NCBI GenBank assembly: GCA_018816945.1
Contig: JAHIVC010000062.1
Coordinates: 1-64,000, forward strand
Direction of reading: 5' to 3'
DNA: 64,000 nucleotides
Origin: Bacteroidota bacterium
GTDB lineage: Bacteria > Bacteroidota > Bacteroidia > Bacteroidales > GCA-2711565
Part shown: positions 3,651 to 23,856 of the stretch, in pieces
Layout of the letters: each line of letters opens with the position of its first letter
Position numbering within the stretch: the stretch's first letter is position 1
Position numbers and translations under genes: made by a program
Notes under the pieces: model-generated
The model's database searches: none
Told to the model about the DNA's origin: nothing
Seen by the model: only the letters and a program-made list of their open reading frames with translations

Positions 3651-6266
3651 TTATATAATCGCATCTTCTTTCACGCTTGTAACTTTAGATGCTGAAATAA
3701 ATTTCCAAATACCATAAGCAAGCAAAGAAAAAACTGACAAGAGTAATAAGTAAGATGAATATTTATTAATTGCATTTCCCAGAATATAGGATCTGGGTTC
3801 AAACTTAAACACTATGGTATGATTGCCAGCCGGAATAACAAGCGATCTGAATAAATAATTAGCCCTTAAATAATCCACAGGTTTATCATCAATATATACA
3901 TGCCATCCTTTGGGATAATATATCTCTGAAAATACTGCCAGCATATTGGCATTTGAGCTCGACTTATAGGTTAAGATATGCGGTTTATAATTTTCCAGTT
4001 TGATCGAAGCCATTGGGTCAAATCCTAAATTTCCCAATTCCATCCCTTTAAACTCAATATTTACGGCTGCATCTTCTCGTGGGTTTACGCTTGTCATAGC
4101 CGCAAATTCATCATTTGCATTTTCGACCCATTTTATATTTTTAACAAACCAGGCATTGCCCATTGCATCCCTATTAAGGAAAGCAGACTGATCAGGATTT
4201 GTTATAATGTACTTTGTATTTAACATGTTTAACAAGCTGTAAGAATCACGATTTTGCCCGGATTGGACATTTCTTCCGAAATTTACAATTTGTTGTTCAA
4301 GTACCCTGCTATCGATCAAATCCTGATAACGCCTTAATTTAGCAGGGCTGTATCCGCTTAATGATTTATGATAATAAGATGTTAATGCATCCGAAAAGTT
4401 GATACCTCCCGATAAGTTTAAAACCCGATAGTTGGTGGTTAAATTCAATGCCAATAAAGGTGGACTCTCATTATTTTTTAAAATCGGGGCATCTTTATAC
4501 GTAGCAAGAAATGACTCAACTCCGGATTTAACCACCGGTGAAAGTGTTTCAATGTTATAAATTGACAAATCGGCTTTTGTTGGCGCAAAAGATGCTTCGG
4601 TAGAACGAACCGTTTTAAAATCCTTATATGAAACATACCTTGTATCAACCAAAGCTAAATCCAACAACATGAGAATTAACATTGAAGTACCCAGTAATAA
4701 TTTTTTGAGTTTTTTGGTATGATATAGCCACAATACACCAGCACCGGCAATTATGAAGAAAAAAGAACGGATTGCATCAATCCTTAACATTGATTTACGG
4801 TCAATCATCAATGCATTAACAAACTCAGGGTTGTTCGCATAATTAGCATCGATCGGGCCTGTAAAACTTCCTGCTAATCCGGGAAACAAAGCAAAAATTA
4901 AGGCAATACCACCAACGATTGCAAATGCCCACTTAATTGCAAACAGAAATTTCTTTTTATTATAATCTTTAAATAATTCGTTTAAAGCAAGTATCCCAAA
5001 AAAAGGAATCGTATATTGAATAATGATAAGAATGGTAGTGACTGCCCTAAATTTATTATATAACGGAAAATAGTTGAAAATAAATCGGTTAAAAATATCA
5101 AAATGATAACCCCAGGCTAAAATCAATGCAAATAAAGAAATACTTAATATCCACCATTTTTCTTTGTTCTGAAGGAAAAACATTGCAAATACAAACAAGA
5201 AAACAGCCAATGCTCCCATGTATGCAGGGCCTTCAGTAGATGGCTGAGGCCCCCAATATAAAGGCAATTGCTTAATTACCTGGTTGGCTTGTGCCCGATT
5301 ACTCTGGCTATAAAGTTTATAAACTTCTGATTTTTCAGAAAGCTCTCCGACCGTGCTGCCCCCTCTAAAATTGGGAATCAATAAATTAAATGACTCCCCA
5401 AGGCCATAACTCCACTGTGTGGCATATTCAAAGTCCAATCCATCTGCTTTAGCTGCTTGTCCGGAAGCGGTATTTGCAGATAAAATTGTGTTGCCCCGAG
5501 CAGAAAACCGGGTATATTCACGGGTAGTCCATATCGAACTGATATTTGTTAAGCCGGCCAATAATGCAGCAACGAATAAAATGGCTGTTATTTTCAAAAA
5601 GTCAATGAGAGTTTTAGTCTTTAAAGCCATTATTAAATAATGTATCCCAATCGCGACAACAATAAGTATGTTATAATAAACTATTTGATAATGTCCCGAT
5701 GCAATTTCCATGGCAAGAAATAATGCCATAACTATTGCACCTATGATCACTTTTCGCTCTTTGTAAGCCAGGTAAATCCCGGCGATAACTCCCGGCATAT
5801 ATGCCAAACCAATTACCTTGGTTACATGGCCCGCACCAATAATTATGATAAAATAGGATGAGAAAGCATAAGCTACACTGCCAACTATACTGAGCCATGG
5901 ATTTACGCCATAACAAATCAATAATAGATAAAACGATATCATGGCAATAAAAAGATAAGCTATTGGCCCATCGCCGGTAAAAAAGTTAATGAATTGCGTT
6001 ATAATATACAAGGGTGCCTCACCTTTTATCCAAATCGTATAAGCCGGCATTCCACCAAAGGCTGAATTCGTCCATGCACAATCATCACCGGTAAGCGACA
6101 CATAAGGTATGATTTCACCCTGTTGGCTTTTTGCCGTAATATTATCTGTTCCGTGCAATACTTTACCTTGACTTGCAGGTAGAAAATAAATGTATGAAAT
6201 AATCAGAAAAGCAACAATTGCTATGATGTGAGGTAGAACTGTTTTTAATATATTTTTTTTCTGCAT
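3651..6266 (-). CDS. YfhO-type polytopic membrane protein (copy 1)
   Basis: This 871-residue protein has many hydrophobic helices in its first two thirds, a soluble region around residues 560-830, and a last helix near 838-858. The N-terminal layout, an early loop with GGMPAYT and the C-terminal block with GWHVYIDDKPVDYLRANY match the YfhO family (PF09586). That family is thought to be GT-C-like and, in Firmicutes, is linked to glycosylation of surface polymers; its role in Bacteroidota is not established. It may transfer sugars from lipid carriers on the outer face of the inner membrane. A paralogue lies 3.3 kb upstream. Only 2 bp separate it from the GT2 gene before it. Confidence 0.88.
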   Translation of the reverse strand: MQKKNILKTVLPHIIAIVAFLIISYIYFLPASQGKVLHGTDNITAKSQQGEIIPYVSLTGDDCAWTNSAFGGMPAYTIWIKGEAPLYIITQFINFFTGDGPIAYLFIAMISFYLLLICYGVNPWLSIVGSVAYAFSSYFIIIIGAGHVTKVIGLAYMPGVIAGIYLAYKERKVIIGAIVMALFLAMEIASGHYQIVYYNILIVVAIGIHYLIMALKTKTLIDFLKITAILFVAALLAGLTNISSIWTTREYTRFSARGNTILSANTASGQAAKADGLDFEYATQWSYGLGESFNLLIPNFRGGSTVGELSEKSEVYKLYSQSNRAQANQVIKQLPLYWGPQPSTEGPAYMGALAVFLFVFAMFFLQNKEKWWILSISLFALILAWGYHFDIFNRFIFNYFPLYNKFRAVTTILIIIQYTIPFFGILALNELFKDYNKKKFLFAIKWAFAIVGGIALIFALFPGLAGSFTGPIDANYANNPEFVNALMIDRKSMLRIDAIRSFFFIIAGAGVLWLYHTKKLKKLLLGTSMLILMLLDLALVDTRYVSYKDFKTVRSTEASFAPTKADLSIYNIETLSPVVKSGVESFLATYKDAPILKNNESPPLLALNLTTNYRVLNLSGGINFSDALTSYYHKSLSGYSPAKLRRYQDLIDSRVLEQQIVNFGRNVQSGQNRDSYSLLNMLNTKYIITNPDQSAFLNRDAMGNAWFVKNIKWVENANDEFAAMTSVNPREDAAVNIEFKGMELGNLGFDPMASIKLENYKPHILTYKSSSNANMLAVFSEIYYPKGWHVYIDDKPVDYLRANYLFRSLVIPAGNHTIVFKFEPRSYILGNAINKYSSYLLLLSVFSLLAYGIWKFISASKVTSVKEDAII

Positions 6267-9555: not shown

Positions 9556-12045
9556 TTAGGATGATTCTTCTTTATTTCTTGAATGCTTCCAACGCTTAAT
9601 TTCGAAATAGCAATATCCTAAAAAAATCAAAATCATTAAAGAAGAGCTGGCATAGGAAATTTTATTACCAATAGTGTAAGACTTTGGTTCAAATTTGAAT
9701 TCTACAACATGGTCTCCTTCCGGAATAACCATTGCGCGTAATACATAGTTTGCCCTGAAGTAATCTGCCTTCTCACCATCGATGTATGCATTCCAACCTT
9801 TATCATAGTATATTTCAGAAAAAACGGTAAACTGTTCTGAACTAGCATTATAAGAATATTTCAGATAGTTTGGTTGGTTTTCGACCATTACAATTCTGTT
9901 CTTTGACTCACTTGAAAATGATTTATCAACTATATAATCTTCAAAATCTTTGTCTACAATGGCAATTGTCTTCGGATCTACTAGTCTCAAAGTAGCTAAT
10001 TCTTCATCAGGATTATTAACAATATGATAGTTATTTACAAACCAAGCATTCCCCATTGCATATTTATTTTTAATAGGGGGAATATTTAAGTCATTAATAA
10101 GATATCTGGTGTTTAACATATTTAAAACGCTCATTTTCAAAAGAATTGAGTCAGATAAATAACCTAATCTTAGCCCATTACTTATTTGCATTAATTCCCG
10201 GTTGATACAACAATCAATAAGTTCCTGGTATCGTCCTAATTTTGCGGCGTGATAACCACCAACATTTTGGTGATAATAGGATGCACGAGCATCCGTAAAA
10301 GGATCTTTCAATTGTAAAACCCTAAAACTTATATCCTGATCCTTCAATATCTCATTATCCGCCAATGTTTTTGGAAAAGGATTCTGGGTTTCGCGTTTAG
10401 AAGAAAAATTACTTTCATTAAAGTATCTTTTATCAACAGCCCAAAGATCAATAATAATGAGTGTTCCTAACAAAAATATTAAACCGTTAGATTTTATTTT
10501 ATTCAGATACCATAAATAGATAGATCCGGCTGCTAAAACAATAAAAACAAAGGATCGAAATGCATCCGCTTGAAGCATATTTTTACGATCAATCACAATA
10601 CTATCGAGCAGCCAATCCGGATTGATTCTCAAATCATTAATTCCCGTGAAGTCTCCGGATATTGCCGGAAACAACGCATACAACAAAGCGAAACCTCCGG
10701 TGATAATCAATGAAGATACTGTGCTTTCAAAAATATCTTTCTTTTTAACCTGACCACTTAAAATTCTGTTCAAACCAATAAACCCAAGTAATGGCATAGT
10801 AAATCCAGCGATTACTAATATCATATCGGGAGCTCTAAATTTACTATAAAGAGGCAGATAATCGAGTAAGAAATCAGATAGGCCCAAAACGTTTTTACCC
10901 CAGGCTAATACGATAGAAATAACTGTTGCTATTAAGAGCCACCATAGATATGGACCCCGAACTATAAATAACCCAAGTACAAATAAAAACACTACAATTG
11001 CACCTATATAGACAGGCCCATAAGTAATTGGCTTATCGCCATAATAATAAGAAATACTTTGACCACTTCTCTGACTTTGACGTGCCTTTTCAATATTTTG
11101 CCTTGTCTTTTTGAATACTTCAGAATTTGTACCTGGGATCAATAAACTTGAACCTCCTTTGAAACTTGGGATTAAAAGTGTTAAGGTTTCATCGATGCCT
11201 TGACTATGCTCAAATACATAATCTCTATCCAGACCTCTAGTTTTATTTGCATCTTCAGCTAATAATTCGGATTGTCCACGAATGGTCTGCTTAGAATATT
11301 CCCAAGTAGTATATAATCTAGAGAAATTCATCCCTATAGCGAGTATAATACCCAAAAGCAAAACCCCAACATTAGCTGCGAAATTTAAAATCCTTTTATT
11401 TTTAATCGCATAAATAATTTCGACTAATCCATAGAGGATCACTAAAATTAAAGTATAATATGTTATTTGATAATGATTTGAATGCAATTGAAGGGATAAT
11501 GCAACTGTGAATAAGAGTGAACCCGAAATTTTCCTGCCCTCAAAAGTCATGATTATCCCTGCAATAACAGGAGCCATATACCCTATCGCATAAGCTTTCG
11601 TATTATGTCCGACACCAATAATAATTAACAGGTAGGTAGAAAATCCATATGCGATGGCACCTGCAAGACTCTGCCATTTATTTATCCCAAGTGTTAGTAA
11701 TAAAAAATAATAACCAATTATATATAAGATTAACATTCCAACGGGATGAAATAGGCTACGGTATATACTATTAATTTGAGAACTTATATTTCCGGGATAT
11801 TTTGCCGAAATCATATAAGCAGGCATTCCACCGAACATACTATTTGTCCATAAAGGTTCTTCACCGGTCTTGTCTCTGAAATCGCTCACCGATTTGGACA
11901 TAGCTCGCCATTGGGTTATGTCAGATTGCTGAATTTTTTTTCCTTCAAAAACAGGAGAGAAATATATTGCTGACAGAACAATGATGAACAGCATAATAAA
12001 AACATGCATCATTTTACCCCATATTTCGGCATTCTTCTTTACCAT
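9556..12045 (-). CDS. YfhO-type polytopic membrane protein (copy 2)
   Basis: An 829-residue paralogue of the protein at 3651-6266. Both share an early loop with WTNSMFGGMPAY (here ~67-78), many transmembrane helices, a second loop with LLIPSFKGGS, and a C-terminal domain ending in FSEIYYDKGW, YFRANYVLRAMVIP and FKFEPKSY before a final helix. Family knowledge suggests a membrane glycosyltransferase-like role, which is not proven in this phylum. It is the first gene of the leftward block and starts 146 bp from the divergent flippase gene. The clear divergence between copies suggests two distinct jobs rather than a recent duplication. Confidence 0.88.
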   Translation of the reverse strand: MVKKNAEIWGKMMHVFIMLFIIVLSAIYFSPVFEGKKIQQSDITQWRAMSKSVSDFRDKTGEEPLWTNSMFGGMPAYMISAKYPGNISSQINSIYRSLFHPVGMLILYIIGYYFLLLTLGINKWQSLAGAIAYGFSTYLLIIIGVGHNTKAYAIGYMAPVIAGIIMTFEGRKISGSLLFTVALSLQLHSNHYQITYYTLILVILYGLVEIIYAIKNKRILNFAANVGVLLLGIILAIGMNFSRLYTTWEYSKQTIRGQSELLAEDANKTRGLDRDYVFEHSQGIDETLTLLIPSFKGGSSLLIPGTNSEVFKKTRQNIEKARQSQRSGQSISYYYGDKPITYGPVYIGAIVVFLFVLGLFIVRGPYLWWLLIATVISIVLAWGKNVLGLSDFLLDYLPLYSKFRAPDMILVIAGFTMPLLGFIGLNRILSGQVKKKDIFESTVSSLIITGGFALLYALFPAISGDFTGINDLRINPDWLLDSIVIDRKNMLQADAFRSFVFIVLAAGSIYLWYLNKIKSNGLIFLLGTLIIIDLWAVDKRYFNESNFSSKRETQNPFPKTLADNEILKDQDISFRVLQLKDPFTDARASYYHQNVGGYHAAKLGRYQELIDCCINRELMQISNGLRLGYLSDSILLKMSVLNMLNTRYLINDLNIPPIKNKYAMGNAWFVNNYHIVNNPDEELATLRLVDPKTIAIVDKDFEDYIVDKSFSSESKNRIVMVENQPNYLKYSYNASSEQFTVFSEIYYDKGWNAYIDGEKADYFRANYVLRAMVIPEGDHVVEFKFEPKSYTIGNKISYASSSLMILIFLGYCYFEIKRWKHSRNKEESS

Positions 12046-13932: not shown

Positions 13933-14541
13933 ATGGCAAAAAATATTTTCCCCGTATTTGATCAACTTCTAACCAGAAATGACAAGGAAAGAATTCTAAA
14001 CCAAAGATCTAAGGTGATATGGTTAGTTGGCTTATCCGGGTCAGGAAAAACTACGATTGCAAGAGGGGTCGAAATTGAATTAAACAAACTTGGATTTCTT
14101 ACACAAATTTTAGATGGAGATAACATACGTTCAGGATTGAGTAAAGATTTGGGATTTTCAGAATCAGACCGAAAAGAAAATATCCGGAGAATTGCAGAAG
14201 TCTCAAAAATATTGTTGAATAGTGGAATCATTTGCTTAAACGGATTCATTGCACCTACAAAAGAAATAAGAAAGATGGCTTATGAAATTATAGGGAGAAA
14301 TGATGTTCTTGATGTTTTCATTAATGCGCCAATAGAGGTTTGTGAGCAAAGAGATGTAAAAGGATTATATATGAAAGCCCGAATGGGTTTGATAAAAGAC
14401 TTTACCGGGATAAATTCACCATTTGAATATCCAGAAAATCCAGATCTGGAAATTAGAACTGACTTACTATCAATTGAAGAGTCTGTAAATAAATGCTTAG
14501 AATTTATTCTCCCAAATATTACCTTGGCAGAAAAGAATTAA
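13933..14541 (+). CDS. cysC: Adenylylsulfate (APS) kinase
   Basis: Phosphorylates adenylylsulfate with ATP to give PAPS, the sulfate donor for sulfotransferases. The 202 residues include the P-loop GLSGSGKT (33-40), the DGDNIRSGL substrate region (~61-69), and DVKGLYMKARMGLIKDFTGI, a block highly typical of CysC, followed by PFEYPENPDL. The usual FISPYRADR-like loop reads NGFIAPTKEIR here, a variation worth noting. No sulfate adenylyltransferase (cysD/N or sat) lies nearby, so APS must come from elsewhere. The leftward sulfotransferase 2.7 kb downstream is the likely consumer, pointing to glycan sulfation rather than sulfate assimilation. Confidence 0.94.
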   Translation: MAKNIFPVFDQLLTRNDKERILNQRSKVIWLVGLSGSGKTTIARGVEIELNKLGFLTQILDGDNIRSGLSKDLGFSESDRKENIRRIAEVSKILLNSGIICLNGFIAPTKEIRKMAYEIIGRNDVLDVFINAPIEVCEQRDVKGLYMKARMGLIKDFTGINSPFEYPENPDLEIRTDLLSIEESVNKCLEFILPNITLAEKN

Positions 14542-14802: not shown

Positions 14803-15720
14803 ATGAAAGTTTTTTATTTTATCAAATATTTTGAAAATGGGTTCAATGCCTATTTTGAGAAGATTAATAATTGTATTGCTACTTTTACCTTTGATTTAGA
14901 GGATAGTATTCATGATTTCAATGACCAGAATAGGAGTCGCCTCCTTAAAGAAAAGTACAGAGAGATCCTTAAAAACGTATTGAATCAGAATCTCAATATA
15001 CATCATTATCATTCTATTGCAATAAGGATAAATAATCCTTTAATAAAGGAATTTTCAAAAGATATAAAGCTTCTAAAAGAAATAAATGGTATTCACTGGG
15101 ACACAATAATAATTCCCAAGGTCGAAAACATAAATCAAATTAAAATCACCTTGCTGGAACTCAAAAAGAATCAAGTCAAATTTCAGAATATTGCAATCTT
15201 TATAGAAACTAAAAATGGGATGTCTGCATTAAAAGAAATAATTTTCAACAATATTCCTGAATTAAAATATGTAATCTTTGGACATGCTGATTACAATTTA
15301 GATAACAGAATTTTCCCATTTATTCATCAGTCGGAATCGCAATACTGGAGTTGGGTCGAGAAAATGTTTATTGATCTTGTAGATTCAAATATTATTTTTA
15401 TTAATTCTCCTTGTCTATTTTTGGATGATAATGATCTTTTTAATTTTAACCTTAAAAAGCTTAGTGATATCTTTAAAGTAAGATTTGGTCAAATGACACT
15501 GACCTTGAGACAAACCTCCATGTGTAATAACTTTAAGGAAAGAGATTTTGGTTCATTGAAATACCCCTACATAAAGAGTGTTGATAAAGTTGAATTTGCT
15601 TTGGAGTTAATTAAAGAAGACAGCATGAAAAAATCTGATAAGAGCTTTTCTATCAATGGTTATAACAATTTTATATGTCCGCAAGAAGTTGTAATGGCCA
15701 GATTATTTTTAGGATATTAA
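14803..15720 (+). CDS. HpcH/HpaI aldolase - CitE-like protein
   Basis: The 305 residues read like a divergent citrate lyase beta-subunit (CitE) TIM barrel: TFDLEDS (~29-35) in the acidic substrate position, an AIRIN strand (~72-76), IIIPKVE (~103-109), an IETKNG strand (~146-151) and FGHADYNLD (~167-175). Enzymes of this fold make or break C-C bonds of CoA thioesters or keto acids with divalent metal. In a polysaccharide locus it may build an acyl or keto-acid decoration; the substrate is unknown. It is unusually AT-rich and precedes an SGNH-like gene whose start overlaps or abuts its end. Confidence 0.72.
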   Translation: MKVFYFIKYFENGFNAYFEKINNCIATFTFDLEDSIHDFNDQNRSRLLKEKYREILKNVLNQNLNIHHYHSIAIRINNPLIKEFSKDIKLLKEINGIHWDTIIIPKVENINQIKITLLELKKNQVKFQNIAIFIETKNGMSALKEIIFNNIPELKYVIFGHADYNLDNRIFPFIHQSESQYWSWVEKMFIDLVDSNIIFINSPCLFLDDNDLFNFNLKKLSDIFKVRFGQMTLTLRQTSMCNNFKERDFGSLKYPYIKSVDKVEFALELIKEDSMKKSDKSFSINGYNNFICPQEVVMARLFLGY

Positions 15721-15731
15721 CATTTTATTTA

Positions 15732-16625
15732 GTGGGAAAGACAAATATTCTGATAGTTAGCGGTTGTATGGCAATTCAGGCCTACAAAGGAAATTTACAG
15801 CCGGAGGATTTATATCATAGCATTTTAAAGGAAACCTTTCTGAAAGAGTATCATAAATTGCTAAATTTTGAAATAATTAATTATAATGAATTGCATCTCT
15901 GTTATGAAAATATTATAGAAAGTTTTGAATCTAAACCGGCGAACATAATAATATTTCAGGTTCGGGGCCATTATTACCTAAATATGGTTAACTTTTTTAA
16001 AACATATAAAACTATTGAACGGGTTAATTTAACAAAAAAAGGGCAACAGGTTACCATACAAAAAAGTCCATATTTTCTTCAGGATCCAAAGAACAAACTG
16101 AGACACGGAAATAATTTTGCGAGCATTTATATTTACAAACAAATGTCTTTTATAAAACGTAAATTAGTAAGACCAATAGGTTATTTCCTGGGGTATTTAT
16201 TTGGAGCTGAGAACTTTGCAAAAATAACATACGCAAAACTAATAACCAATACATTACAGTATGCTGAATACAAAAAAGTTCCTGTTCTTTTTTTAGGAGT
16301 AACATCTCGGCCAGATTGCAAAGTTGCGAACCTATTTGCAAAGCGTTTAAATAGATACGCCGAAAAATTGATAACTTCTTTGGGGGGAACCTATATAGAT
16401 ATTTTTGGTAAATACACAACAAAGAATGAGTGTAAATTTGTTAATAACAAAAGTGACAGAGTTAGTTTGAATAATATTGGACATAGGGAAGTTGCTGAGA
16501 AATTTACTAAATATATTGAGAAATTAATTATACCGCCTAATTTAGATAAATCCGGTATTGATGACCCCTACTCGGATGATACTACCAACTTCAGGAATAA
16601 TGATACAAAGAACTCAAATAGCTGA
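15732..16625 (+). CDS. SGNH-hydrolase-like protein
   Basis: About 297 residues starting at a GTG 11 bp after the CitE-like gene; an in-frame ATG at 15675 would overlap that gene by 46 bp. The order of elements fits the SGNH/GDSL fold: an N-terminal strand-turn (NILIVSGCMA), a central IIIFQVRGHYYL strand, VPVLFLGVTSRP, and a C-terminal SLNNIGHREVAEKF that could hold the catalytic histidine. The canonical GDS serine is not clear; the turn reads SGC. It may O-acetylate, deacetylate or otherwise modify the glycan. The pairing with a CitE-like protein suggests a shared acyl-transfer step, which is inference. Confidence 0.55.
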   Translation: MGKTNILIVSGCMAIQAYKGNLQPEDLYHSILKETFLKEYHKLLNFEIINYNELHLCYENIIESFESKPANIIIFQVRGHYYLNMVNFFKTYKTIERVNLTKKGQQVTIQKSPYFLQDPKNKLRHGNNFASIYIYKQMSFIKRKLVRPIGYFLGYLFGAENFAKITYAKLITNTLQYAEYKKVPVLFLGVTSRPDCKVANLFAKRLNRYAEKLITSLGGTYIDIFGKYTTKNECKFVNNKSDRVSLNNIGHREVAEKFTKYIEKLIIPPNLDKSGIDDPYSDDTTNFRNNDTKNSNS

Positions 16626-17238: not shown

Positions 17239-17919
17239 TTAAGATTTATTTTTCCATGGCATTTTGTGTATGATTTTCTCTGATCCAATGAAGTTGCATA
17301 CCTTAATCGCTGCATCAGGTTCTTGCACATTAATCACAAGTAATTTTCCCGGTCTATCTTTAAAATAATCAATTACTGACGAATTATAATCAATATACTT
17401 CTTTTTCATAATTTCCTTATTATAAATATCGTTTTCAGGAGTTTCCCATATCTGGGTTCGTTCCCACATCCAGCCTGGATAAACATATTCAGCAATTTGT
17501 AATTGTTCCTTCGTTGGAATTTGTCCGTTACCAAATAATTTGGAGTGAAAGGATGTCAAAGATATGTACCACTCATCCGGCGAATTACGAATTGTCAAGA
17601 TAAACTTGCTATCAGGAAATTCCTTATCCATTATTTTAAATGTGTTTGGGAGGCTAAATGGTATGTCCTGAAAAGCTTCTCCATTATATTTTACGTAGCG
17701 GATGATTCTTCTATAATCACCTCTAATCCAATCTTTAAGTAATAATTCTGCTGGTCTTTGAGGCCCCACCCTTAATCCTATTTGCCTAAAAAGCTCTGCC
17801 ATACTTGTTGTTCCGGTTTTATTATTTCCGATGCAAAAAAATTTTTGACTGTTTACATAAAGAACAGAACAGATTATCCTAAAACCAACTGATTTAATTT
17901 TTTTAAATATTTTTAGCAT
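17239..17919 (-). CDS. Sulfotransferase family protein
   Basis: A 226-residue PAPS-dependent sulfotransferase. The 5'-phosphosulfate-binding loop GNNKTGTTS is at 31-39 and a 3'-phosphate-binding segment ([13 protein letters not shown]) is near 106-118, with arginine and serine in the expected places. A hydrophobic N-terminus could act as a weak membrane association segment. It probably sulfates the polysaccharide or a lipid-linked unit using PAPS from the nearby CysC. It is transcribed against its neighbours and sits between IS3 and IS110 remnants, so it may have been brought in separately. Confidence 0.85.
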
Positions 17920-18191: not shown

Positions 18192-19358
18192 ATGTCAATC
18201 AAACAATTTTCGCTAAAAAACTTATCTTTGATCAAGAATATGAAAAATTCCTTAACCCCTATTTTCGTATCTCAACCTTCTTTGCCTGACTTAGAAGAAC
18301 TTCTTCCATATCTAGAAGAGATATGGAAGAGTAAACGATTAACAAATTTTGGTCCGTTTCATAAGCAATTTGAAACTGAGCTAGCAAAATTTTTAGGTGT
18401 TCCGTACATCTCAATTTTTACAAATGGAACATTAGCCTTGTTGACAGCATTGAAAGCACTAGACATCAAAGGAGAAGTCATTACAACTCCTTACAGTTTT
18501 GTTGCAACAACACATAGTTTAAGATGGAACAACATAAAGCCTGTTTTCATCGATATTGAATCTGATTATTGCACTATGGATCCTGAAAAAATTGAAGCCG
18601 CAATAACCTCAGAAACAACAGCCATACTTCCAGTACATGTTTATGGCAACCCGTGCAAAGTGGAACAAATTAAAGAGATTGCTGCTAAATACGGATTAAA
18701 GGTTATATATGATGCTGCGCATGCCTTTGGTGTAAATTACAAAGGGCAAAGCATCTGCAATTTTGGCGATCTTTCAATATTAAGCTTCCATGCAACCAAG
18801 GTATTTAATACTTTTGAGGGTGGAGCTATCGTTTGTCATGATGCCCAGACTAAAGTGAGAATTGACCACTTAACAAATTTTGGGTTTAAAGACGAAACAA
18901 CAGTAATTGCTACTGGAATTAATTCAAAAATGAATGAAATACAGGCAGCGATCGGTATATTGCAACTAAAAAAACACAAAGATAATATTTTACAACGAAA
19001 AATAATTTCTGAAAACTATCGAAAAAAACTGAAACAATGCAAAGGAATTTCAACCTTAGCCCAACCTACTGATACCATAAGTAATTATGCATATTTTCCA
19101 ATTTTTATAAATGAAAAAGATTATGGAATATCTCGCGACGCTCTTTACGAAAAATTAAAACAAAATGGGATATTTGGCAGGCGCTATTTCTATCCTTTAA
19201 TAAGTAATTTTCCAATTTATAACGATTTAGATTCTTCAAAACCTGAAAATTTGAAGGTGGCTACCCTAAAGGCTGACTCTGTTATATGCTTACCAATCTT
19301 CCCCTTAATGAAACCTGAAAGTTTTGATAGAATTATTCGTACTATTATTGAACATTAG
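18192..19358 (+). CDS. DegT/DnrJ/EryC1/StrS PLP-dependent sugar aminotransferase
   Basis: The 388 residues match the DegT family, which transaminates nucleotide-linked keto-sugars. PLP contacts are visible: TNGTLALLTAL (~78-88), the aspartate of YDAAHAFG (173-180), and the Schiff-base lysine K203 in SFHATKVFNTFEGG. The first ~16 residues are atypical, so translation may begin at Met17 (18240). It heads a rightward block with a NeuD-type acyltransferase and a BKACE-type enzyme. This suggests synthesis of an N-acylated amino sugar. No matching nucleotide-sugar dehydratase lies beside it; the Gmd product, a 4-keto sugar, is one possible substrate and would give a perosamine-like sugar. Confidence 0.9.
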   Translation: MSIKQFSLKNLSLIKNMKNSLTPIFVSQPSLPDLEELLPYLEEIWKSKRLTNFGPFHKQFETELAKFLGVPYISIFTNGTLALLTALKALDIKGEVITTPYSFVATTHSLRWNNIKPVFIDIESDYCTMDPEKIEAAITSETTAILPVHVYGNPCKVEQIKEIAAKYGLKVIYDAAHAFGVNYKGQSICNFGDLSILSFHATKVFNTFEGGAIVCHDAQTKVRIDHLTNFGFKDETTVIATGINSKMNEIQAAIGILQLKKHKDNILQRKIISENYRKKLKQCKGISTLAQPTDTISNYAYFPIFINEKDYGISRDALYEKLKQNGIFGRRYFYPLISNFPIYNDLDSSKPENLKVATLKADSVICLPIFPLMKPESFDRIIRTIIEH

Positions 19359-19446
19359 ATGATGAAATCACAGATAAAGAACTGCTATATGCCTGTTTTT
19401 TTTTATAATGTTATGTATGAATAAAGATGATTTAACCTGATAAAAT

Positions 19447-20079
19447 ATGGACTCAAATAAAATTATTGTAATAGGAGCTGGTTTATATTCGGAGGAAATA
19501 ACTGATCTGATCCAAACATCATTCACTGGCGAGATTATGGCTTTCATAGAAGGTGTTAATCGAGAAAATTGTGGTGTAAATGAAAATGGGGTACCAGTTA
19601 TATGGATTGATGAGATGAATGATTTAAATTTGTCACATAAATGTATCTGTGCGATCGGCTCACCTAAGCGAAAAAATTTAATCGAGCTTGTTAAATTAAA
19701 AGGTTTTGGTTTTACTTCATTAATCCATCCGTCTGCTCAAATATTTCCTTCAGCATTTATATCGATGGGTTCAATAATTGGAGCTGGTACCGTGATTTCG
19801 ACAAAAACTAAGATTGGAGAGCATGTGATCATAAACAGAGGATGCCTTATCGGTCACCATGTTTGCATTGAAAACTATGTTACTCTTTCTCCGGGAGTAA
19901 ATATTGCAGGTAAAGTTACGATTAAAGAATGTGCATATATAGGGATGGGAGCTATCATACTGGATGGAATATCCATAGGAGCAAATTCTGTAATCGGTGC
20001 TGGCGCATTAGTCACAAAAGAAGTACCCGATAATGTTCAGGTGATGGGGATTCCGGCAAGAATTACCAAAATATTTTAA
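19447..20079 (+). CDS. Sugar acyltransferase, NeuD/PglD family
   Basis: A 210-residue enzyme with a Rossmann-like N-terminus (KIIVIGAGLYSEEI) that binds the nucleotide sugar, and a left-handed beta-helix of hexapeptide repeats from ~95 to 195 (for example IGAGTVIST, INRGCLIGH, IGMGAIILDG, IGAGALVTK) that binds the acyl-CoA. The likely catalytic histidine is in GHHVCIEN (~136-143). Family members acylate the amino group made by a DegT aminotransferase, exactly the gene upstream (88 bp gap). The acyl group could be acetyl or, given the next gene, something less common. Confidence 0.9.
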   Translation: MDSNKIIVIGAGLYSEEITDLIQTSFTGEIMAFIEGVNRENCGVNENGVPVIWIDEMNDLNLSHKCICAIGSPKRKNLIELVKLKGFGFTSLIHPSAQIFPSAFISMGSIIGAGTVISTKTKIGEHVIINRGCLIGHHVCIENYVTLSPGVNIAGKVTIKECAYIGMGAIILDGISIGANSVIGAGALVTKEVPDNVQVMGIPARITKIF

Positions 20080-20107
20080 TTTTATAAACAGTAACTTTAT
20101 ATTAACT

Positions 20108-20977
20108 ATGAACCTTATTATCAACTTCACACCCACTGGAATGATTCCTACCAAGGAATTAACCCCACATGTACCAATTTCTGTCACAGAAATTATCGAA
20201 AATGTACACGAGGCTATTGAAATAGGAATCTCAATGGTTCATTTGCATGCAAGAGATGAAAAAACAGGAGAACCTACCTATAAAAAAAAGGTGTATGGAA
20301 AGATTATTGAAGGCATTAGAAAATATTCTAAAGAACTAGTCATATGCGTATCTCTAAGTGGCAGGGGAATTAAAGAATTTGTTCATCGTGCTTCTCCCCT
20401 GCAATTGGAAAACGATTTAAAACCTGATATGGGAAGTCTTACACTCAGCTCCCTGAATTTTAATAGTATGGAGAGTATGAATTCCCCAGAGATGATCAAG
20501 AAATTGGCTGAGGAAATGAAAAATAAAGGAATATTAGCTGAACTGGAGGCTTTTGATGCAGGTATGATCAATTACGCAAAATACCTGGAAAGAAAGGGTT
20601 TACTTCAACCTCCTCATTATTTTAACCTATTATTAGGTAATATTGCTTGTGCACAAGCAGATTTGCTTCATGCAGGCCTCATGGTACGTGATTTACCCAA
20701 AGGTTCGGTTTGGAGTTTTGGAGGAATTGGTGACACTCAGTTAATGATGAACTCTCTTGCTGTTGCTTCGGGTGGTGGAGTTAGAGTAGGATTGGAAGAC
20801 AATATTTTTTATGATATTAAACGAACTCGTCTTGCAAAAAACAGCGAATTAATTAATCGGATTCATACCCTGGCAGAAGCCAATGAAAGAAAGATAATGC
20901 AACCATCAGAACTTAGGAAAATCTTGGGTCTGAATCCTGGATTTGGATTCTATGGAAAAGATTTTAGTCGAAGTTAA
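20108..20977 (+). CDS. BKACE (DUF849) beta-keto acid cleavage family enzyme
   Basis: The 289 residues match the BKACE family of TIM-barrel zinc enzymes that exchange acetyl-CoA with beta-keto acids. The metal-binding HLHARD is at 45-50, the FTPTG start at 7-11, and SFGGIGDTQLMMN and the GGGVRVGLEDN loop near the C-terminus are typical. Its place 28 bp after an acyltransferase gene and beside a GT2 gene is unusual for a catabolic enzyme. It may supply an unusual acyl-CoA or keto-acid precursor for the sugar decoration; that is inference. The length (289) is normal for the family. Confidence 0.9.
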   Translation: MNLIINFTPTGMIPTKELTPHVPISVTEIIENVHEAIEIGISMVHLHARDEKTGEPTYKKKVYGKIIEGIRKYSKELVICVSLSGRGIKEFVHRASPLQLENDLKPDMGSLTLSSLNFNSMESMNSPEMIKKLAEEMKNKGILAELEAFDAGMINYAKYLERKGLLQPPHYFNLLLGNIACAQADLLHAGLMVRDLPKGSVWSFGGIGDTQLMMNSLAVASGGGVRVGLEDNIFYDIKRTRLAKNSELINRIHTLAEANERKIMQPSELRKILGLNPGFGFYGKDFSRS

Positions 20978-21046
20978 TTAAAGGTAATATTGGCATCAAG
21001 TATTATCAAAGTATGACTCAGTAATATTTTAAATATTCAAATTAAT

Positions 21047-22093
21047 ATGCATACGAAATTTCCCAAAATAAGTATTATAGTCCCGGTATATAATAGTGAA
21101 AATTTTATTGCAAAGTGCATTCATTCAATCTTAAATCAAAGCTTTAAAGAAATTGAAGTTATTGCCATAAACGATTGCTCAACCGATCAATCACAGAAGA
21201 TTCTGGAAGATTTGGCAGCTAAAGATAATCGACTTAGAATAATTAATAACAAAACCAACATTGGAGGTGGAGGTTCAAGAAACATAGGAATTAGTTCAGC
21301 TAAAGGGACTTACCTTATGTTTGTAGATCATGATGATTGGCTAAATCTAGATGCCTGTGAAGTATTATATAATATTGCTTATTCGAACGATTTAGACATC
21401 TTAGAGGCCACACATATTCACGACTCAAAAAGTTCTGGCATAAATACAAGAACCCTTGAAAAGCAAATAGAAACTCCAAAGGTGTATTCAGGTGCTGAAT
21501 ATATTAGTAAATATCCTTTTAACCCAATCATTTGGAACCGTATTTGGAAAAGAGCATTTATGATTGAGAATCAAATTTACTGTCTCTCTGGGAATCAATT
21601 CAGCGACAGCACATTGTCAATACAAGGCTTGATATATGCCAAAAGGATTTCTAAAATTGAATTCCCATTTTATCATTATTTTAAAGGGAACAAGTTCTCT
21701 GTCATGAATAAACCAATAAACGATGAATCATTAATAGACAAATTAATTTTATCTGACTTCTATCTTAACCTATATCGCGACAATGACTCTTCGGAATTAG
21801 ATGGTCCAATAAGAAAAGTTATATCAGGACGAATACAGACTCATTTAAGTTATTTAAGAAGATATCAAGGGAAGAATAAAGACCTTCAAGAAAAATATAT
21901 CGCAAAAATGGAAGAGTTCATTAGAATAGGTCAGCCCTATTTTATGACATTAAAGCAAATTCCATACCTTAAAAAATTATTAATATATCTCTCTCCCTCC
22001 ACTTATATTACTGTTTTTCGATTCATTGACAAAATTAAGAGTCGACTGAATAAAGTAGTGTTGAAAAAGCATATTAAAACAGTGCAATATTGA
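21047..22093 (+). CDS. Glycosyltransferase family 2
   Basis: A 348-residue GT2 enzyme with the start ISIIVPVYNSENF, the nucleotide-binding INDCSTD (41-47), the NIGGGGSRNIG glycine-rich block (~71-81) and the metal site VDHDDW (93-98). The C-terminal ~120 residues are basic and helical, ending in a region that may touch the membrane. It likely transfers the amino sugar made by the three preceding genes. Decayed GT2 sequence at 23868-24160 has a very similar IGAGTLRN...VNSDDW block, so this locus has held at least two related GT2 genes. Confidence 0.93.
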   Translation: MHTKFPKISIIVPVYNSENFIAKCIHSILNQSFKEIEVIAINDCSTDQSQKILEDLAAKDNRLRIINNKTNIGGGGSRNIGISSAKGTYLMFVDHDDWLNLDACEVLYNIAYSNDLDILEATHIHDSKSSGINTRTLEKQIETPKVYSGAEYISKYPFNPIIWNRIWKRAFMIENQIYCLSGNQFSDSTLSIQGLIYAKRISKIEFPFYHYFKGNKFSVMNKPINDESLIDKLILSDFYLNLYRDNDSSELDGPIRKVISGRIQTHLSYLRRYQGKNKDLQEKYIAKMEEFIRIGQPYFMTLKQIPYLKKLLIYLSPSTYITVFRFIDKIKSRLNKVVLKKHIKTVQY

Positions 22094-22264: not shown

Positions 22265-22470
22265 AGAGAATGAAACTCCCCGCCGCAGAGTAGCGGGGTA
22301 TCAATTGGAATAGTATTTAATTTTTTCGCCACAAGCCCGCCTGCGGCCGGCAGGTGGCGGAGTACCAGCCTGCCGGCTGGCAGGTTAGTCTCATTCATCC
22401 CGATACGCTGCACTTTCGGGATTCGTTCAGCTTAGAATTTTTATAGCGCTCGCACTTATAAAAATTTAGT
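22265..22470. repeat. Composite GC-rich hairpin element
   Basis: In the 355-bp gap between convergent genes lies a run of hairpins in otherwise AT-rich DNA: CCCCGC (22278-22283) with GCGGGG (22293-22298); CGCCA (22327-22331) with TGGCG (22355-22359) enclosing CCTGC/GCAGG; CCAGCC (22365-22370) with GGCTGG (22375-22380); TCCCGA (22398-22403) with TCGGGA (22416-22421); and AATTTTTATA (22436-22445) with TATAAAAATT (22457-22466). It resembles REP- or MITE-like intergenic elements. It may also stop transcription from both sides. The flanks 22209-22264 and 22471-22563 show nothing further. Confidence 0.7.
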
Positions 22471-22563: not shown

Positions 22564-23856
22564 TTATTCGTGTAAATTTCGAGACTCTTTCAAAAACTCA
22601 TTATACAATTCTTCAATATAAATACTTGCCGGACGAAAATACTTAATTAACTTATCTTGACTTTCTTCTCCTTTCAATTTGAGAACCCATTTATATATTT
22701 GCATATAAACAAAAAATATTTTAGCAATAATTAGGTTATTACCTTCACAAAAATCACATTTGTTAATATATAATTTCAATATTTCATCAAAGCTAAAAGC
22801 AAAATTCCAAAAATAGTTATTCATATCCCAACCTCTAAGCGCAACGCCATATGCCCCCCAATCTATCACCCATTTCTTATCACTTTCATATTCTGAAATA
22901 ATATTACTCTTGTGAAAATCATTATGACAAAAAGAATAATGGATTTCCGGAATTATATTTCTATATAGTTTTTTTGAAATTATTATTCTCTCAAGATTCT
23001 TAATTATTTCAAGCAATTCGTTATGGTCATTCTTGGACTTATTTAACAAGTATTTCATCTCAGAGAAAATATGCTCATTCATCATTCTAGTATGTAATTC
23101 GCCAGCTGCGAGCCGCTGAGTATCTAAACTTGAGCCAAATATTTCAATTAAAGGAAGAGCTTCATTGTAACTTATAGTTTCAATTATGCTGTTAATTTTT
23201 AAAATTTCTGAAATATCATTGATAGAAGATATTTTCCCTTCGATCATTTTAACTGTTAATAATGAATATTTTGAATCTACTTTTTCTATAGAATTTAAAA
23301 AATTAGGGCAAATTGTTTTCAATTTTGGATATTTTTCATAAATATTCAGATAAAAATATATCCCTTTATTTATTGATCTCATTCTCCCAGAACTATCCAT
23401 TATTTTAGTTATATAGTTATATGAAGAACCATTAGCAGACTCTTTATTGTGCAATATAAAACCAAAATTAGTATTCCCACCAAAGTATTTAAAACCCGAG
23501 TCATATCCACAATTAGCAGGTAGCCCTATTCTCGATAACTGAATTAATCTATTTGTATCCGAATTCAAAAACAATACAAGTGCTTTTTTCATTAAAACTT
23601 CAGCATATTCATGATTTCCGGAACGATGTGCTAAAAAAGCATTTTTTTTAGTTAAATAAATATCGTCCTTATATTTAATTAATTCTTTTTTACCAATTTC
23701 GAATGCTTTTTCATAATTACCTGCAGAAATTTGTCTATCATAATTATAAATGTTGTTATGAAATAATTTTAACCGTAATCGATTCAAACGTCTTTTGATA
23801 ATTTCTAAGAAGTATCCTTTTTGAATACTTCTTCTAATTTTATAATAACTAAACAT
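22564..23856 (-). CDS. APH/choline-kinase-fold phosphotransferase with helical N-terminus
   Basis: A 430-residue protein. Residues ~35-110 look like short helical repeats (TPR-like: AGNYEKAFEIGKKEL, SGNHEYAEVLMKKAL). Residues ~125-400 look like an aminoglycoside phosphotransferase/choline-kinase fold: a possible ATP-binding lysine in YITKIMD (~K151), the catalytic loop HNDFHKSN (311-318) and the metal-binding aspartate in VIDWGAYG (330-337). It may phosphorylate a sugar or a glycan substituent in the cytosol. A gap with a decayed GT2 gene lies upstream. The substrate cannot be predicted, and a role in phosphocholine or phosphoethanolamine decoration is only one possibility. Confidence 0.72.
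   Translation of the reverse strand: MFSYYKIRRSIQKGYFLEIIKRRLNRLRLKLFHNNIYNYDRQISAGNYEKAFEIGKKELIKYKDDIYLTKKNAFLAHRSGNHEYAEVLMKKALVLFLNSDTNRLIQLSRIGLPANCGYDSGFKYFGGNTNFGFILHNKESANGSSYNYITKIMDSSGRMRSINKGIYFYLNIYEKYPKLKTICPNFLNSIEKVDSKYSLLTVKMIEGKISSINDISEILKINSIIETISYNEALPLIEIFGSSLDTQRLAAGELHTRMMNEHIFSEMKYLLNKSKNDHNELLEIIKNLERIIISKKLYRNIIPEIHYSFCHNDFHKSNIISEYESDKKWVIDWGAYGVALRGWDMNNYFWNFAFSFDEILKLYINKCDFCEGNNLIIAKIFFVYMQIYKWVLKLKGEESQDKLIKYFRPASIYIEELYNEFLKESRNLHE

Follow-up and report, generated by a model that had tools for sequence, protein, structure and literature searches.

A beta-keto acid cleavage enzyme (BKACE, DUF849) encoded at the third place of a four-gene unit in a Bacteroidales genome belongs to a clade whose members are coupled to acyltransferases, as neighbours or by fusion, in most of the loci that we collected. 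The unit lies at 18192-22093 of a stretch of 64,000 nucleotides (positions 1-64,000 of JAHIVC010000062.1, assembly GCA_018816945.1, GCA-2711565; henceforth the window) and comprises genes for a DegT aminotransferase, a NeuD-type acyltransferase, the BKACE and a family 2 glycosyltransferase (GT2). Our direct observations concern these genes, the conservation of catalytic residues, the clade and its coupling and fusion to acyltransferases, and the reading which we favour on this ground, and which seems to us rather probable, is that BKACE makes a dedicated acyl-coenzyme A (acyl-CoA) for its partner acyltransferase and that the product of the unit is an N-acylated 4-amino-4,6-dideoxy sugar. Held with slightly more doubt than trust is a wider proposal, namely that we are dealing with a widespread and undescribed two-enzyme module in which this DUF849 clade makes a short acyl-CoA from a free beta-keto acid for an adjacent or fused left-handed beta-helix (LbH) or GNAT acyltransferase, and which, in 13 phyla, would decorate surface sugars in some bacteria and other acceptors in Flavobacteriaceae, Chloroflexota and the lineage that bears the fusions. 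Were this true, a non-acetyl acyl group would be expected on the surface glycans of uncultured bacteria, among them Bacteroidota and Planctomycetota, and the GNAT-BKACE fusion protein could be assayed alone. In the open-access literature, judged by titles and the start of abstracts, we found no description of the BKACE-acyltransferase pairing; most subscription journals lie outside this scope, as does Bastard et al. 2014, which is said to be the founding paper of the BKACE family.

Coupling of a BKACE clade to acyltransferases

Among 395 genomes sampled evenly from the phylum, 15, the window's included, have a close BKACE at E<=1e-20, and a contig scan with a six-sequence alignment confirmed 349 relatives, the best 80 of which (81% down to 63% identity) were used. 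The 95 clade loci (numbered with L) are thus the window, L003-L016 and L023-L102; L017-L022 and re-fetched copies of clade loci (L114-L140) did not enter the counts a second time. A script predicted the genes of each locus after first fixing the BKACE open reading frame (ORF), and acyltransferases were marked by profiles, some of which, like the WbqC set considered below, derive from neighbour families built at an earlier stage.

Nine of the 95 loci have a GNAT fused to BKACE, 74 have an acyltransferase as immediate neighbour and four (L004, L045, L048, L087) have one within three genes, leaving eight without. Hence the conserved co-occurrence, on whose presence the initial annotation had made its proposal depend, is borne out by coupling in 87 of 95 loci, fusions included. 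Immediate partners lie on the same strand as BKACE in 70 cases, at a median gap of 8.5 bp and with 21 overlaps, and are GNATs of family F2 (36), hexapeptide LbH proteins (30) or GNATs of the types f45 (4), F12 (3) and F20 (1). Profile matches are found in 73 of 180 first neighbours as against 2 of 232 genes at rank >=5, and the 15 genomes of the phylum sample, our less selected set, are all coupled (nine fused, five immediate and L004 two genes away). As annotated in the sequence records, which are mostly metagenome assemblies, the coupled loci spread over 13 phyla; Bacteroidota account for 44 of the 87, and 16 lack a placement. With Pfam, and with the window itself set aside, the 114 same-strand neighbours at <=250 bp and of >=120 amino acids (aa), taken from 80 of 94 loci, matched Acetyltransf_1 in 30 and Hexapep in 29 cases (E<=0.01). 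In a distal control of 114 genes drawn at random from the 458 at rank >=3 in the clade loci (61 loci drawn), both families fell outside the top 25 of 185, so that each accounts for at most 2 of 114. The association of BKACE with acyltransferases is far from chance. A chance neighbourhood within sugar loci was considered and rejected in view of the F2 pairs, which have few sugar genes around them, and of the fusions.

The partners belong to two unrelated folds, the left-handed beta-helix and the GNAT fold, the latter with several families. All nine fusions, which are ORFs of 451-510 aa from one family of the phylum, pass the Pfam cut-offs of both Acetyltransf_1 and BKACE. Of 23 F2 proteins, 20 have an Acetyltransf_1 match at E<=0.1; the first member has no Pfam match and a sequence-profile search of the PDB with F2 gave none, and the PDB structures listed as matches of the F2 predicted structure (pLDDT 85.5) are mostly acetyltransferases. 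From sequence and model together we assign F2 to the GNATs. The f45-type partners of L038 and L051 are GNATs, too, an F20 member is an Acetyltransf_6 and an F12 member reaches GNAT families only below their cut-offs. LbH partners fall into several families, some NeuD/PglD-like and others resembling maltose or colanic-acid O-acetyltransferases in alignments judged by eye. As side observations, the BKACE-F2 pairs occur in L030 and in 35 loci among L042-L102, mostly Flavobacteriaceae, and F2 appears by eye to begin with a likely amphipathic segment; the Chloroflexota loci L045, L048 and L087 bring together BKACE, an S-adenosylmethionine methyltransferase, an F20 protein (Acetyltransf_6-type) and an F12 GNAT.

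For comparison we assembled an outgroup of 19 BKACE loci: three paralogues from clade-bearing genomes (three of seven such matches, the other four being dropped as without locus) and 16 above-cut-off matches from two overlapping genome sets (143 and 56 genomes) drawn from the classes around L053 and L090. L154 and L155, below the PF05853 cut-off, were removed from the outgroup and the partial L152 from the tree. None of the 19 outgroup loci has an acyltransferase profile match within the roughly 1.5 kb of flank available per side, and the 18 same-strand neighbours (14 loci) are led, in Pfam, by 3HCDH, thioesterase, aminotransferase III, short-chain dehydrogenase and AMP-binding enzyme families; 25 of 41 families are listed and the others have at most one member each, which leaves room for no more than one unlisted GNAT or hexapeptide member. 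These loci look catabolic, whereas those of the acyltransferase-partnered clade do not. A quick maximum-likelihood tree of 115 BKACEs, rooted on the outgroup, separates the 95 clade loci from 20 outgroup rows with a support of only 85; support is 99 for the 86 unfused rows, 98 for the nine fused ones and 99 for 19 of the 20 outgroup rows. Close to the root L151 forms a long branch, and several branches in the outgroup are long as well. On this one quick tree the partner type requires 17 changes among clade rows, when 'none' and each GNAT family are treated as separate states. Thus a single kind of BKACE has on repeated occasions been joined with acyltransferases of different types.

Active site, proposed reaction and rival explanations

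The window BKACE matches PF05853 over its full length (residues 3-275) with 260.2 bits against a cut-off of 24.8, and its sequence matches in the PDB are DUF849 structures. It stays below the cut-offs of all four named NCBIfam BKACE models that it matched, the best being that of lysine Kce (NF052387, 227.6 versus 382 bits). In the alignment H45, H47, E230, E147, R226 and D231 are invariant in 86 of 86 unfused clade members, and D231 stands at what we take to be the position of the catalytic Asp. Passages of PMC12871164 and PMC11961710 describe the equivalents of H45, H47 and E230 as Zn ligands and give the roles of the catalytic Glu and of the Arg; the counterpart of E147 is E171, the catalytic base of BKACE15 (PMC11961710). 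Because Zn ligands and catalytic residues are invariant, the clade BKACEs do not look like dead enzymes. The position of Kce Glu14, a residue which presumably binds the substrate amine, holds Ile in 79, Val in 4 and Leu in 2 of the 86 unfused rows, with one gap (Ile13 in the window), and for this reason the clade substrate is probably neutral. According to passages of PMC4922564, the substrates of one published BKACE group, G1, are 'hydrophobic and non-charged polar'. Four further residues (Ser84, Thr112, Asn178, Gln183) are fixed in the 86 unfused members and mostly different in the outgroup, and all nine fusions have Pro at the position of Gln183.

How the unit may work can be sketched as follows. 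DegT would transaminate dTDP-4-keto-6-deoxyglucose to dTDP-4-amino-4,6-dideoxyglucose (dTDP-Qui4N), a step resting on family knowledge. The remaining steps we infer from the coupling, and with them the direction of the BKACE reaction, the substrate, the acyl group and the acceptor: on its Zn, BKACE would convert a small neutral beta-keto acid and acetyl-CoA to a shortened acyl-CoA and acetoacetate, NeuD would place the acyl group on the 4-amino group of dTDP-Qui4N and GT2 would probably transfer the finished, acylated sugar to the glycan. More generally, the partner acyltransferase, adjoining or fused, would decide the acceptor. As the active site is fixed while partners change, we think that several acceptors receive their acyl group from one and the same donor or from a small range of donors. 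Propionyl, isobutyryl, 3-hydroxybutyryl and formyl are candidate acyl groups, none of them preferred; as for formyl, passages of PMC11961710 report formyl-CoA formation from malonate semialdehyde by more than 20 of 124 BKACEs tested.

Several points weigh against the view that BKACE supplies a dedicated donor for an acylamino sugar. The acyltransferase profiles were built in part from the very neighbours they mark (a fault of which the Pfam tests are free), and the 80 scanned loci are the nearest of the 349 relatives of the window BKACE rather than a random draw from DUF849. No partner is near in eight clade loci (L032, L037, L070, L080, L082, L089, L095 and L091, the last with an acyltransferase four genes away), and the unit itself has no gene for making the beta-keto acid. 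Some LbH partners (by eye L028, L029, L041, L044, L050) are O-acetyltransferase-like, so the acyl bond need not be an amide. Around the 36 F2 loci, moreover, five profiles find within six genes GT2 in one, an epimerase in one, CapK in three and DegT in none. With most BKACE-F2 pairs devoid of sugar genes by these profiles, the acylamino-sugar route put forward in the initial annotation keeps its support from the BKACE-acyltransferase pairing but seems to be one use among others of a broader module.

A last such point is Phe149, which replaces Kce Tyr145 in 86 of 86 unfused and 9 of 9 fused clade members, while passages of PMC12871164 state that the equivalent Tyr is present in all BKACE sequences. 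The same passages describe BsfD of flavophos biosynthesis, which resembles our BKACE as a biosynthetic DUF849 enzyme with Phe (Phe166) at the Tyr position and which stops at the acetylated product, a different reaction that they link to the exchange of Tyr for Phe. A clade that does not cleave but C-acetylates a beta-keto acid in the manner of BsfD, or forms a C-C bond, with the product being activated otherwise for the acyltransferase, is to our minds unlikely. CapK-like genes, possible acid-activating enzymes, do occur by profile within six genes in five partnered clade loci, yet that of L031 matches the AMP-binding family only below cut-off and that of L046 no Pfam family. Phe is also frequent elsewhere in DUF849, with 11 Phe and nine Tyr among the 20 outgroup rows, and 3NO5, with Phe at this position, scores 494 bits against the cut-off of 350 in the NCBIfam equivalog model for 3-oxoadipate:acetyl-CoA acetyltransferase. 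Judged from these sequences, we do not take Tyr as family-defining, and Phe149 was discarded as proof of BsfD-like chemistry. BsfD differs further in that it C-acetylates a phosphonate and has an insertion of about 20 residues after strand beta3, and the passages name no acyltransferase in its cluster (PMC12871164); the window BKACE is only four residues longer than Kce at the site of this insertion. Finally, a free C-acetylated acid is no acyl donor.

That the group added by NeuD is plain acetyl, drawn from the common pool, with BKACE serving another step of the same product or consuming a by-product, we regard as unlikely. It would agree with the PDB naming the PerB and PglD relatives acetyltransferases, but the link to GNATs and the fusions are hard to explain if the partner needs acetyl-CoA alone. 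Still less do we expect a catabolic BKACE, for lysine, carnitine or another keto acid, whose position in the cluster is incidental: this seems very unlikely given the conserved acyltransferase partners and fusions, a clade that does not keep Kce Glu14 and loci that do not look catabolic as those of the outgroup do. Such a role would fit Kce as an enzyme of lysine fermentation (PMC4922564) and a BKACE gene in a betaine/carnitine island of SAR11 (passages of PMC12421898), and also the CoA-transferase pair encoded in the source genome, a pair which could recycle acetoacetate. A search of that genome for lysine aminomutase (PF09043), run without a positive control, found none. Lysine fermentation and carnitine catabolism as such were set aside on gene context and on the residue at the Kce Glu14 position.

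Returning to the dedicated-donor reading, the closest known enzymes are BKACE/Kce proteins such as Cloacimonas Kce (2Y7D-G) and Paracoccus BKACE15 (8RIP), which share with the window BKACE the Pfam family, the Zn ligands and the catalytic Glu, Arg and Asp; the window BKACE differs in its separate acyltransferase-partnered clade, in Ile/Val/Leu for Glu14, in Phe for Tyr145 and in scoring below the NCBIfam cut-offs. An aminotransferase followed by an LbH acyltransferase on a 4-keto-6-deoxy nucleotide sugar is likewise found in VioA/VioB, PerA/PerB and PglE/PglD, which use acetyl-CoA as donor and, unlike what we propose for the window unit, are not known to include a gene that makes an acyl-CoA. 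By analogy, the unit may work as other aminotransferase plus NeuD-type sugar pathways do, with the donor enzyme as the difference. In the anthrose pathway the acyl-CoA presumably arises via an enoyl-CoA hydratase-like enzyme and without BKACE. This pathway (antABCD) resembles what we propose for our unit in being a dedicated operon for Qui4N with a non-acetyl N-acyl group (structure, PMC6222408; operon, PMC7793302, in which no mention of such a hydratase was found). Acyl-building genes inside a sugar cluster are also seen in wfpC-G of the Flavobacterium psychrophilum O-polysaccharide, where passages of PMC6519341 have a PglD homologue predicted to place 3,5-dihydroxyhexanoyl on the 4-amino group; there, however, the acyl group is predicted to be built by ketosynthases on a dedicated acyl carrier protein, as opposed to the single BKACE with free keto acid and CoA that we propose.

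The four-gene unit and its surroundings

The tight order DegT-NeuD-BKACE-GT2 described in the initial annotation was confirmed by ORFs, Pfam and NCBIfam, with all four ORFs present on the plus strand (Table 1) and gaps of 88, 28 and 69 bp between them. It is an isolated, closed unit, since the flanking genes on both sides are on the minus strand.

Table 1. Positions of the unit's genes, two window neighbours and the fusion loci
Feature	Position	Strand	Length and basis
DegT/DnrJ/EryC1 aminotransferase, DesI-like	18192..19358	+	388 aa; Pfam DegT_DnrJ_EryC1 347 bits
NeuD/PglD/VioB-type left-handed beta-helix sugar N-acyltransferase	19447..20079	+	210 aa; TIGR03570, Pfam
BKACE (DUF849, PF05853), acyltransferase-partnered clade	20108..20977	+	289 aa; Pfam 260 bits, tree position
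Family 2 glycosyltransferase (GT2)	21047..22093	+	348 aa; Glycos_transf_2 116 bits
Sulfotransferase (Sulfotransfer_4), divergent neighbour outside core unit	17239..17919	-	Pfam 54.7 bits
Kinase-like gene, downstream neighbour of GT2	22564..23856	-	
GNAT-BKACE fusion loci	L006:820-2352; L009:1492-2847; L010-L016		

DegT, for which an internal ATG at 18240 may be an alternative start, has DesI (TIGR04427) as its best NCBIfam model at 300 bits, below the equivalog cut-off of 650, and its best PDB sequence match is 2po3, which we take to be DesI. By sequence it is DesI-like only and a probable dTDP-4-keto-6-deoxyglucose 4-aminotransferase; its SFHATK motif holds the presumed pyridoxal phosphate lysine. 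A dTDP-glucose 4,6-dehydratase is encoded elsewhere in the source genome (484 bits against a family cut-off of 365). NeuD passes the NeuD_NnaD model TIGR03570 (178.5 bits, cut-off 160.8), matches Hexapep (59 bits) and PglD_N (29 bits) in Pfam, has PerB (4ea7) and VioB (7txp) as best PDB matches and contains a GHH motif with a presumably catalytic role. The unit's BKACE is the sole PF05853 match in the source genome, and five further genomes of the genus, three of them at most 87% complete, gave no BKACE match.

The initial annotation proposed a search for conserved DegT-NeuD-DUF849 triads. DegT lies within six genes of BKACE in at least 10 of 32 LbH-type loci (the window, L008, L024, L026, L081, L085, L090, L091, L098, L101), a lower bound because many contigs end inside this range, and DegT, NeuD and BKACE come together in several phyla; GT2 is that near in only 15 of the 32. 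Identity to the window's DegT is 68% in L026, 67% in L081 (over 230 residues), 63% in L024, 56% in L090 and 46% in L091, and only 28-34% in L085, L101 and L008. L082 has DegT and no acyltransferase match. Among the loci listed, the gene directly after BKACE matches the GT2 profile in L008, L024, L025, L026, L098 and L101. WbqC (PF08889) occurs in nine clade loci, for instance at L024:4558-5280, and sits between DegT and NeuD in L024, L026 and L098. With its confident predicted structure (pLDDT 91) nothing in the PDB matched at E<=0.001; class I tyrosyl-tRNA synthetases and ubiquitin E1 enzymes are among the weak matches that miss this threshold. In L029, dTDP-rhamnose-like genes and an ABC exporter surround the LbH-BKACE pair (by eye).

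The unit is embedded in a glycan cluster which, by ORF list and Pfam, has glycosyltransferase, APS kinase and sulfotransferase genes and to which flippase-like, GDP-mannose dehydratase-like and fucose synthase-like genes can be added by eye from translations. The APS kinase is a stand-alone one (13933-14541, plus strand; TIGR00455 above cut-off) and, together with the Sulfotransfer_4 gene, suggests a sulfated glycan. By blastp, homologues of this sulfotransferase are found in L081 and L090 only, both of which also have DegT, NeuD and BKACE. About 2.5 kb upstream of the unit, an HpcH/HpaI C-C lyase gene (14803-15720, plus strand; CitE/RipC-like with weak scores of 27-37 bits) encodes a second possible CoA-ester C-C enzyme of the cluster, judging by these matches, and overlaps a downstream ORF (15675-16625, plus strand) without Pfam match. 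Two large, similar-looking multi-spanning membrane proteins (3651-6266 and 9556-12045, minus strand; 871 and 829 aa) are YfhO-like by eye. Inspection by eye also shows, in the AT-rich intergenic DNA that follows GT2, a short segment high in G+C with palindromic repeats (22280-22400), which resembles a terminator or a dispersed repeat element.

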